Source: a bacterium (GTDB taxonomy: Bacteria > Hydrothermota > DG-26 > JAUXAN01). From it: 64,000 nucleotides of DNA. A program made the position numbers and the translations under genes. The stretch covers positions 1-64,000 of the forward strand of contig JAUXAN010000008.1 in assembly GCA_030619885.1 (NCBI GenBank), read 5' to 3'. Below the pieces are notes generated by a model. It had not been told where the DNA came from, searched no databases, and saw only the letters and a list, made by a program, of their open reading frames with translations. Within the stretch, counting starts at the first letter, position 1; every line of letters starts with the position of its first letter. Below are positions 719-43,681 of this stretch, piece after piece.

Positions 719-1396
719 ATGGCGCGGCTGGCAAGAGTTGTAGCACCCGGTATTCCTCACCACATCACGCAGCGAGGAAATCGACGGCAGCCAGTATTCT
801 TCAAGGACGAAGACTATCGGAACTACTTAAAGCTGATGGCGGAATGGTGTGGCAGGCGGCAAGTTGCGGTGTGGGCTTATTGTCTGATGCCTAATCATGT
901 GCATCTGATATCTGTGCCAGAAACAAAGGAGAACCTATCCCGCGCCATTGGTGAGGCGCATCGGCGTTACACGCGGATGATTAACTTCAGAGAGAACTGG
1001 AGGGGTTATCTGTGGCAAGGAAGATTTGCCTCATATCCCTTAGACGAGAAGCATCTACTGGCTGCAGTGCGATACATAGAGCTTAATCCAGTTCGAGCGG
1101 GCTTGGTAAAAGTCGCTTGGGCATACCCGTGGTCAAGTGCGTCGGCCTATATCCAAGGTAGGGATGACTTACTGGTCAAGGTAAAACCGATGTTAGAGAT
1201 CGTTGGAGACTGGCGAGGCTTTCTCAATACGGGCATAAGTGATGCAGAGATGGAGATGCTTCGCAGGCACATGCGGACTTGCCGTCCTCTGGGGAGCGAA
1301 GATTTCATCAAAACCATCGAGAGGGAACTTGGCCGCATATTAAGACCGCAGAAACCCGGGCCAAAGAAATTAAGAAATCCGAATGAGAAAAAATAA
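719..1396 (+). CDS. REP-associated Y1 transposase (IS200-like, TnpA_REP)
   Basis: A complete 225-residue member of the Y1 HUH transposase family of the REP-associated (RAYT) branch. N-terminal HITQRGNRRQPVF is diagnostic. The HUH metal site is the HVH in MPNHVHLI (about residues 58-65), and the catalytic tyrosine is probably Y83 in AHRRYTRMI. Such enzymes nick and rejoin single-stranded hairpin ends. A 13-base motif lies before the promoter (665-677) and inverted directly after the stop (1397-1409). The gene looks intact with a consensus promoter, so it may still be active. Its GC-richer composition compared with neighbours suggests recent arrival. Confidence 0.92.
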   Translation: MARLARVVAPGIPHHITQRGNRRQPVFFKDEDYRNYLKLMAEWCGRRQVAVWAYCLMPNHVHLISVPETKENLSRAIGEAHRRYTRMINFRENWRGYLWQGRFASYPLDEKHLLAAVRYIELNPVRAGLVKVAWAYPWSSASAYIQGRDDLLVKVKPMLEIVGDWRGFLNTGISDAEMEMLRRHMRTCRPLGSEDFIKTIERELGRILRPQKPGPKKLRNPNEKK

Positions 1397-2488: not shown

Positions 2489-2516
2489 TTGACAAATTTT
2501 TGACATTCCTTACAAT
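2489..2516 (+). promoter_or_regulatory. Promoter upstream of the small gene at 2762
   Basis: TTGACA at 2489-2494, 16-base spacer, TACAAT at 2511-2516. The predicted transcription start is about 2523, directly at the 5' side of a terminator-like hairpin. Confidence 0.7.
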
Positions 2517-2524
2517 AACATTTG

Positions 2525-2568
2525 GAGGGTAGTAAAAGAAAAAAAAGATGTGCTGCCCTCGTTTTTTT
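2525..2568 (+). terminator. Promoter-proximal hairpin with T-run (attenuator or tiny RNA)
   Basis: GAGGGTAG (2525-2532) pairs fully, allowing one G-U, with CTGCCCTC (2553-2560) around an A-rich 20-base loop, followed by seven Ts (2562-2568). With the promoter at 2489-2516 the terminated transcript would be only about 45 bases. Readthrough would give the 240-base leader of the gene at 2762. Confidence 0.6.
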
Positions 2569-2625
2569 ATTCACCCGTATTTTCACCAAACCACATTTGA
2601 CTTTAAAGCAGGTGCTCTTCCTATC

Positions 2626-2703
2626 ATCCTAAACAAAGGAGGTGATACTGAAATATAGCATCATTCATAGGGCGGTATATACGACAATATGTCATATATA
2701 AAA
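2626..2703 (+). promoter_or_regulatory. Shared 5' leader element, copy 1 (orphan Shine-Dalgarno plus palindrome)
   Basis: The 24 bases at 2626-2649, containing AAAGGAGGTGA, are identical to the minus strand at 43505-43528. After 29 bases comes ATACGACA-AT-ATGTC-A-TATATAAAA (2679-2703), matching the minus strand at 43450-43474 except at the three spacer bases. The perfect ribosome-binding sequence has no ATG behind it; the real start at 2762 has its own AAAGGAGG at about 2750. Both copies lie 5' of otherwise unrelated small genes. Confidence 0.7.
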
Positions 2704-2761
2704 TTATCCACCACATGACCTTATTGTGGGGTAGTTTCATAAAAAGTAAAGGAGGTTTAAG

Positions 2762-2992
2762 ATGTCTACTCGACAAGATTCTTACTTAATCTATGTAGAA
2801 AAATATGCAAATTTCTTATTCGGGGTAGAACTCAACATTGGAGGTTGTGGAGAGAAAAAGGCTGAGGGATCTGCTATGTATGATGAACGAGGAATATTAG
2901 CTGTGGAAATTGCTGCAGATGATGTTAGAAAGAATGTCCCCCTGCGTTCCAGGAGCGAGTTTGAAGGGTACCTCAAGAGCCAAACGAAGTGA
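2762..2992 (+). CDS. Small protein of unknown function (76 aa)
   Basis: A 76-residue acidic, soluble protein with no signal peptide, membrane segment or recognisable domain; two glycines and a single cysteine occur in the central IGGCGEKK. A strong AAAGGAGG ends about 6 bases before the ATG, which supports real translation. It is unusual in its regulation: a promoter, a promoter-proximal terminator-like hairpin and a leader element shared with the unrelated membrane gene at 42930-43412. I do not recognise the family. It stands alone between the transposon region and a degraded zinc-ribbon gene. Confidence 0.6.
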   Translation: MSTRQDSYLIYVEKYANFLFGVELNIGGCGEKKAEGSAMYDERGILAVEIAADDVRKNVPLRSRSEFEGYLKSQTK

Positions 2993-42929: not shown

Positions 42930-43412
42930 TTAAGTTTCAGTAGGTTGTGGTAAGCTATTTACCGCATCGCAGACTTTAATCACAATTATTATCAAAATGA
43001 CAAGGTTAATAATTGAAAATACTAATCCTGCAACTGCTACTCGGCTTAAGACCCCTGTCACTAAGGTTAAGATGCAATAAGTCAAGAATAGTCCCTCAGT
43101 GAGTTTAGGAGTGGAAATCTCATGTCGGGTTATATATGAGTTATAATCCTTAGCAAATCCCCAAATTGCTTGAAAAATCCAATAGAGATTGTAAAAAGGT
43201 ATAAATAGAAAGCCGACAGCCTTGCCAGGTGTAGTTCGAGCATGACCATCCTGAATAGCCTTCCATGCTTTATACCACATCACTAAGGATACCACTGCAG
43301 CATAGAGCACCAAGATTGCCCCGAACGGAACTTCCGCTCCAATAAGTATTGTGCCCAAAATTCCAGCACCTGCAATTGAACCCAAGTAAAAACCTTTCGA
43401 TAAATTTTCCAC
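42930..43412 (-). CDS. Integral membrane protein, unknown (160 aa)
   Basis: 160 residues with four predicted membrane helices (about 8-26, 30-48, 64-84 and 105-150, the last long enough for two). The central RTTPGKAVGFLFIPFYNLYW with AKDYNSY is a recurrent motif in small uncharacterised bacterial membrane proteins. GAAAGGAGGGAATC precedes the ATG. Its 5' leader carries the same element as the gene at 2762. No function assigned. Confidence 0.7.
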   Translation of the reverse strand: MENLSKGFYLGSIAGAGILGTILIGAEVPFGAILVLYAAVVSLVMWYKAWKAIQDGHARTTPGKAVGFLFIPFYNLYWIFQAIWGFAKDYNSYITRHEISTPKLTEGLFLTYCILTLVTGVLSRVAVAGLVFSIINLVILIIIVIKVCDAVNSLPQPTET

Positions 43413-43449
43413 GATTCCCTCCTTTCTCTGCTCTTAATAGCAGATGACG

Positions 43450-43528
43450 TTTTATATACGACATGGTGTCGTATGTACTTACAATGTGGTGGTATATGTG
43501 ACTTAGTATCACCTCCTTTGTTTAGGAT
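43450..43528 (-). promoter_or_regulatory. Shared 5' leader element, copy 2
   Basis: Minus-strand counterpart of 2626-2703. Block 1 (43505-43528) is identical over 24 bases; block 2 (43450-43474) has a better palindrome, ATACGACA-CC-ATGTCGTAT, than copy 1. The spacing between blocks is 30 here and 29 there. Further upstream a TTGACA (43633-43628) and an AACATTAGGG segment also echo copy 1. Confidence 0.7.
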
Positions 43529-43681
43529 TATCCAAAAGATGCTGTGCATAAGAAAGAACAACTACATTTTTTCCTTTCACTACTTCCCTAATGTTACATT
43601 ATCTATTTTCAAAGATATCAAAAAAATTGTCAAGAAAAAAATGGCATTATTCCTAATTCATAGTGAAAGGTATCCTTAAAT

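Follow-up and report, generated by a model that had tools for sequence, protein, structure and literature searches.

The paired leaders described here lie in a 64,000-nucleotide stretch of bacterial DNA (the window), and they are very probably internally deleted, integrase-less integron platforms of one family, each standing in front of an orphan gene. We read them as platform remnants because of the position of a putative attI site 3' of recombinase genes, the attC-type ends of the genes that follow it and a cassette shared with a genome of another taxonomic family. The intact form, known from relatives, consists of a promoter, an intI-like tyrosine recombinase gene, a putative attI site immediately after the stop codon and cassettes in the same orientation (a 'reverse' integron). 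This site has a GTTRRRY core and a pair of palindromes, each with 9-bp arms, that lie ~40 bp from one another; the recombinase would bind the palindromes and insert cassettes at the core.

In the window, the recombinase gene of both copies has very probably undergone an internal deletion, leaving the promoter region, a few N-terminal codons, the last codons (block 1), a partly deleted attI (block 2) and the captured gene. In the copy at 43528 (C9b), palindrome 2 and the spacer are still there along with the right half of palindrome 1, whereas the copy at 2626 (C9a) has a hybrid of the left of palindrome 1 and the right of palindrome 2. Because the same-strand integrase gene between them would be deleted, the old integrase promoter would end up close to the captured gene, which it may now drive. 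Both window genes may have arrived as cassettes, and the attI sites of the window are probably no longer active. The duplicated leader reported in an earlier note on this sequence is real, yet it is explained as scars of an integron family. Such scars are of modest interest; the notable part is an integron-like system with a recombinase that fails the IntI test.

The two leaders and their copies in the genome

Block 1, a 24-mer (ATCCTAAACAAAGGAGGTGATACT), is present on the forward strand in the left copy and, with 0 mismatches, on the reverse strand in the right copy (Table 1). By our own estimate, the chance expectation for an exact 24-base repeat in a window of this size is ~1e-5. Block 2 (ATACGACA..ATGTC.TATATAAAA) was found at 2679-2703 and 43474-43450, at a spacing of 29 and 30, respectively, and its pattern had 2 matches in the window against 0.00 expected. 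The reverse-strand copy is the better palindrome of the two and the genes behind the leaders are mutually unrelated, all in agreement with the earlier note. The spacer, which the note had taken to be not conserved, does differ between the copies, but it consists of conserved DNA from which each copy has lost a different part.

Table 1. Features of the left (C9a) and right (C9b) platform remnants in the window
Feature	Position	Strand	Basis
Probable old integrase promoter, left; TTGACA N16 TACAAT	2489..2516	+	inferred from sequence
Leader ORF MCCPRFFIHPYFHQTTFDFKAGALPIILNKGGDTEI, then stop; putative integrase 5' remnant joined to the integrase C-terminal end (..LNKGGD..)	2548..2658	+	
Block 1, left; final codons of the integrase (C70 has ..SPLDNLNKGGDIGK, then stop)	2626..2649	+	
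Damaged putative attI, left; left of palindrome 1 fused to right of palindrome 2, with arms at 2676-2684 and 2692-2700	2671..2706	+	
Orphan 76-aa gene in the captured-gene position of the left platform	2762..2992	+	
Probable old integrase promoter, right; TTGACA N17 GAAAAT	43605..43633	-	position as in relatives
Leader ORF VKGKNVVVLSYAQHLLDNPKQRR, then stop; putative integrase N-terminal remnant, then out of frame into the 3' end	43509..43580	-	
Block 1, right; probable deletion junction ATCCT (N-terminal Asn-Pro codons)/AAACAAAGGAGGTGATACT (integrase 3' end)	43505..43528	-	
Putative attI, right; palindrome 1 right half (43502-43491), spacer, palindrome 2, degenerate core ACGTCATC	43448..43510	-	
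Orphan 160-aa membrane-protein gene behind the right platform	42930..43412	-	

When more copies of the leader motif were sought, they were found both in relatives and in the same genome, a draft assembly of 2.46 Mb in 86 contigs. Genome-wide, a third exact copy of block 1 is located at C33:2939, and a fourth, with three mismatches, at C70:27170 within a recombinase gene. Other copies of the palindrome are found in C36, C70 (two) and C23, and DNA similarity revealed additional ones in C58 and C68. The left copy and C33 are a true duplication that reaches into the coding gene and includes the 76-aa gene (378/402 aligned columns identical), so the view that the repeat is not a gene duplication does not hold for C9a. 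C33 is a small contig (L016, 3594 bp) that begins and ends in parts of a gmd-like gene and also carries a transposase-like gene; a repeated GGTCAAAAAATGTCAAGCC... segment flanks the third platform copy on both sides, and the end of the contig cuts the 76-aa gene. In the window, an IS200-like (Y1) transposase gene lies near the left copy (719-1396, forward strand).

At C70, block 1 lies in the frame of the recombinase C-terminus (..SITSPLDNLNKGGDIGK and ...THVSNKFLGSITSPLDNLNKGGDIGK, each followed by a stop codon; …PLDNLNKGGD, then stop). Judged by this comparison, block 1 corresponds to the last codons of a tyrosine recombinase gene, a residue of coding sequence and no regulatory motif, and block 2 to half of a two-palindrome recombination site, a putative attI, located 3' of recombinases. 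The first five bases of block 1, ATCCT, would correspond to the N-terminal Asn-Pro codons (LPYNP or LPYAQHPVDNP) and its remaining bases to the 3' end of the recombinase gene. On our own reading of the alignment, the 24-mer would span one deletion junction reached in both copies.

Remnants of the 5' end of the gene were also detected. The right leader peptide (VVVLSYAQHLLDNP, compared with IAVTLPYAQHPVDNP in the recombinase) retains the N-terminal YAQHxxDNP; YAQH occurs only once in the six frames of the window, and 25/32 bases of the right leader are those of the integrase start at C58. In the left leader ORF, which has a near-equal counterpart in C33, the putative 5' remnant is a short match only (..KAGALP.. 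versus KIAVALPY of the integrase). Both C9a and C33 have block 1 in its original reading frame (..LNKGGD..), followed by a hybrid palindrome. The left-copy promoter has the same relative position as TTGAC..TATTATA before intact and stub integrase genes. A profile of the promoter and 5' stub built from relatives did not score the window copies as significant, though the relatives resemble each other, and the window promoters are therefore listed as probable.

In a DNA search, the right attI matched the attI consensus query with 92% identity over 60 bp (E=1.5e-18; palindrome 2 arms at 43477-43469 and 43461-43453) and the damaged left attI with E=9.6e-5. The core CGTT is kept in C33 (core ACGTTATCC) and gone in C9a (AAAA--TTATCC; CG missing), and the GTTRRRY core is degenerate in the window copies, reading GTCATCT at 43448 and being lost at 2702 (C33 has GTTATCC).

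The recombinase gene and attI in relatives

The C70 protein is a tyrosine recombinase (PF00589, 2e-25) whose top NCBIfam match is integron integrase TIGR02249 (4e-30), and the palindromes come after its stop codon. An internal deletion affects the C70 gene too, in which MRRMKSNRIRITTAQQEKIAVALPY is joined to SNVALNTLRQYY..., and a search of the genome that contains the window yielded no intact member of this recombinase family; as the assembly is a draft in many contigs, such a gene could be absent from the data. Long or full-length genes of the family were found in relatives from the same phylum, including one encoding 350 aa in G035 (WOR-3 bacterium UBA6260). The sequences 3' of the stop codons in relatives share a common plan, made up of two palindromes, a GTTRRRY-like core and then, usually, a genome-specific gene (for example TATACC..GACACTATGTCACATATACCGCCAAATCGGAAGTATATACGACACCATGTCGTATATAAACAAGTTGTGCGAAAT in G046 and GGTATATACGAACCATTCGCATATACCACCAAATTGGAAGGATATCCGAACCATTCGGATATAAACGAGTTAGCCGAAAT in G008). 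The palindrome pair stands behind the recombinase gene of C70 and behind its counterparts at several loci of relatives, and the cores at which unrelated genes begin (relatives, C70/C58) include GTTAGGC, GTTATAC and GTTAGCC. For the family, a recombinase gene thus adjoins the insertion site; the window keeps only the gene ends. Because the palindromes are located 3' of recombinase genes and are followed by a conserved GTTRRRY-like boundary and then by different genes, we read them as a recombination site.

The same plan of recombinase and palindromes was seen in contigs assigned to WOR-3, Thermoanaerobaculaceae, Marinimicrobia, Caldisericum, Euryarchaeota, Methanosarcinales, Nitrospirae and Dehalococcoidia; it is less clear in Bacteroidetes, and in more distant relatives of the recombinase (e.g. 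in Firmicutes) a transposase-like gene comes next instead. DNA matches to the attI query were obtained in 27 of 100 relatives, the weakest of which (E above 0.001) may be due to chance.

Cassette boundaries at attI

In an integron, the inserted cassette starts with the end of its own attC, and the start of a cassette should therefore complement the attC box near its end. The first gene at the attI of C70, C58, C44, C36 and G008:C120 has an end complementary to its own start, with scores of 12-14 of a possible 20 against at most 10 in shuffles. The complementarity was absent at several other loci in the same test, some of them truncated where the contig or locus ends. This test was more informative than the first attC scans, which either overlooked known sites (strict rules) or returned a mixture of candidates (looser rules). 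After tuning, the scan picked up the known sites at C70, C36 and G008 and detected none beyond chance in the window. Complete attC hairpins were found with the tuned scan at C70, C36 (ATATAACAGCGTGTTTGCAG...CGCAAACACGCAAACCGTTATAT) and G008:C120, and the boundary only at C58 and C44. In addition, a cassette encoding a SnoaL-domain protein is found at the attI of both C70 and G056, which belongs to another taxonomic family; from the core on 108/110 bp are identical, and the 60 bp preceding the cassette share 35% identity. Taken by comparison, the cassette boundaries and the shared SnoaL cassette make gene capture at the palindromic site, in relatives and in the same genome, well supported.

No attC was found behind the 76-aa or the 160-aa gene of the window by either the complementarity test or the tuned scan, and the two are therefore treated as putative cassettes only. 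The two proteins belong to no Pfam, NCBIfam or PADLOC family, and a search of 100 relative genomes yielded no convincing homologues; one match (E=2e-4, 29% identity) was judged to be chance-like.

A type II restriction-modification pair is the cargo of the C36 cassette. Several genomes have genes for restriction-modification or a DNA methylase beside attI (L018 (C36), L019 (C23), L071 and L073), and at C23 an MjaI-type pair lies beside an orphan attI half. C58 (L024:2305-2340) and C44 (L025:100-150) carry different cassettes, yet in both the attC box CTAACGAG is immediately followed by the same ACTGTCGAAAAAGTCC..., as would be seen if a single insertion element used attC as its target.

The recombinase and known systems

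The recombinase passes the cut-off of NF040815 (XerA-type recombinase/integron integrase) and falls below that of TIGR02249, the IntI model; its match to this model is split in two, with ~50 positions missing (about 180-230). Compared with the IntI structure PDB 2a3v, it has 18 residues where IntI has about 60, and no extra helix is seen at the position of the IntI additional domain in a predicted AlphaFold model of moderate confidence (pLDDT 72, pTM 0.45), which was used for this point only. The IntI-specific additional domain between the catalytic patches is thus not present by profile, structure comparison or predicted model. The catalytic residues R200, K225, H290, R293, H316 and Y325 (the R-K-H-R-H-Y set) are invariant in six intact members, and the N-terminus carries an extra module of ~70 aa that matches no Pfam family. 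In a member from a Bacteroidetes MAG (L083:2476-4086), this module appears to be present about three times in tandem. A canonical IntI above the cut-off was not found in the genomes of 60 relatives. As the additional domain that defines IntI is absent, the use of attC by this recombinase is presumed.

One close likeness is to the chromosomal integrons of Treponema, which are same-strand ('reverse') integrons with intI transcribed towards attI (PMC3607928). Both have attI at the 3' end of the recombinase gene, same-strand cassettes and attC-type ends, and integrase-less remnants are known in Treponema too (PMC3607928). In the family described here, unlike in Treponema, the attI is a pair of long palindromes, there are many platforms per genome, and the recombinase lacks the IntI additional domain and has the extra N-terminal module. 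Archaeal integrons share the location of attI downstream of intI, the occurrence in MAGs and a canonical insertion point, but their IntIs have been described with the additional domain (PMC9668308), whereas this recombinase is without it and passes the NF040815 cut-off only. XerA, XerC and XerD with dif (PDB 4a8e, 5hxy, 1a0p) also combine a core lacking the additional domain with a site of inverted arms and a short centre. In contrast to Xer/dif, the site here lies beside its own gene in two copies, with a GTTRRRY core and different captured genes, and it is no chromosome-dimer site.

The additional domain has been treated as the defining mark of IntI (PMC2426708, PMC9668308), and an integron survey picked integrases by it (PMC2426708). 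Under that definition, the present family would escape notice, and arrays of its cassettes would be scored as orphans. Among open-licence papers, we found none on WOR-3 integrons or on attC cassettes served by a recombinase that lacks the domain. Should this recombinase indeed mobilise attC cassettes, the domain could no longer be regarded as necessary for activity. As a tentative extension, the family may be a separate integron class in WOR-3 and other bacterial and archaeal phyla, with an Xer-type recombinase that lacks the IntI additional domain and integrase-less promoter-attI stubs that function as landing pads served in trans, giving many exchangeable one-gene expression slots per genome.

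Recurrent integrase-less stubs

Deletion stubs that keep the 5' end of the platform and attI, with or without the last codons, were found at C36, C68, G033:C75, G008:C114 and G041:C311; the junctions read MENYRIRLTALTGRTTGKMQ/NPLDNLKEEG.. at C68 and, at G033:C75, MKGSKIKISSSQPGTDL/RKIKSPLDNMKVDKWDL followed by a stop codon. In G038, stubs are present at about nine places. Four units of ~135 bp in this genome are 71-85% identical from the promoter to the core (GTT) and have different genes behind them, and their 150 bp flanks on each side are at about the shuffled level, apart from one pair with 59% upstream. Three units lie in tandem at C62 of G038. In several recombinase deletions (C70, C36, C9 at 2626 and 43528, C33 and G008:C114 (L070)), the 5' breakpoint is at about the same codons (LPY or LPYNP, residues 20-25), and the 3' breakpoints differ.

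The unit of promoter, stub and attI could also be a small non-autonomous, MITE-like mobile element, copied as a unit and landing before genes, which we consider unlikely. This explanation agrees with ours on the parts, and differs only in how the stubs spread, as against the independent decay of full integrons. The four alike units with unrelated flanks in G038, the tandem at C62 and the presence of a single unit, together with its gene, in two copies (C9a and C33) are all consistent with it. However, neither a constant target-site duplication nor a terminal repeat was seen, the breakpoints vary among C9a, C9b, C36, C68, C70 and G033, and the left-flank similarity of units c and d in G038 suggests ordinary segmental duplication.

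The stubs resemble known integrons with an inactivated intI, which affects nearly one third of intI genes (PMC2426708); functional integrases carry a cost (PMC3510236). In both cases the integrase is lost and the cassettes and platform are kept (PMC2426708, PMC3510236), but in the present family most losses are due to large internal deletions sparing the promoter region and attI, and several stubs occur in one genome. Recurrent stubs suggest a route to fixing captured genes behind an old integrase promoter, and stub platforms dispersed through genomes with different genes behind them are of wider interest.

Regulatory readings of the leaders

The earlier note proposed a cis-regulatory RNA or a protein operator. 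The palindrome does have the behaviour of a protein-read DNA site; the RNA reading does not hold, and a repressor operator is most unlikely. The predicted recurrence of the palindrome 5' of unrelated genes was borne out, and compensated changes in the arms were indeed found across relatives (TATATACGA/TCGTATATA, ATATCCGAA/TTCGGATAT, TATATCCGC/GCGGATATA, TTATATCAG/CTGATATAA and TAAGTACGC/GCGTACTTA), but they belong to a DNA palindrome at a recombination site, not to an RNA, and are the pattern expected of a two-fold symmetric protein site.

These symmetric arms, and the position of the site between promoter and gene in the stub copies, would also suit an operator at which a transcription factor, possibly the recombinase itself, controls the downstream gene. 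This is very improbable, as the intact cases place the site 3' of the recombinase gene, at the edge of the captured genes and with no promoter there, and no regulator is conserved beside the copies. Binding of the recombinase with a transcriptional effect is possible as a side role of the palindromes. An RNA leader common to both genes (a riboswitch or leader-peptide attenuator) was rejected as extremely improbable, despite the place of the small palindrome 5' of two unrelated genes, the strong SD-like AAAGGAGGTGAT and the short leader ORF, since fold z-scores were -1.36 and -1.63, no Rfam family matched at the gathering threshold (the best chance match had E=0.92), the SD-like string is recombinase coding sequence at C70, and relatives have the palindrome behind the recombinase gene, with a boundary for gene insertion after it. 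Within the recombinase genes and attI sites of relatives (L057, L059 and L067), a short palindromic insert resembling ACCTGCCTACCGGCAGGCAGG is also recurrent. For annotation, the case is a warning that scars of recombinase genes can pass for paired leader motifs.
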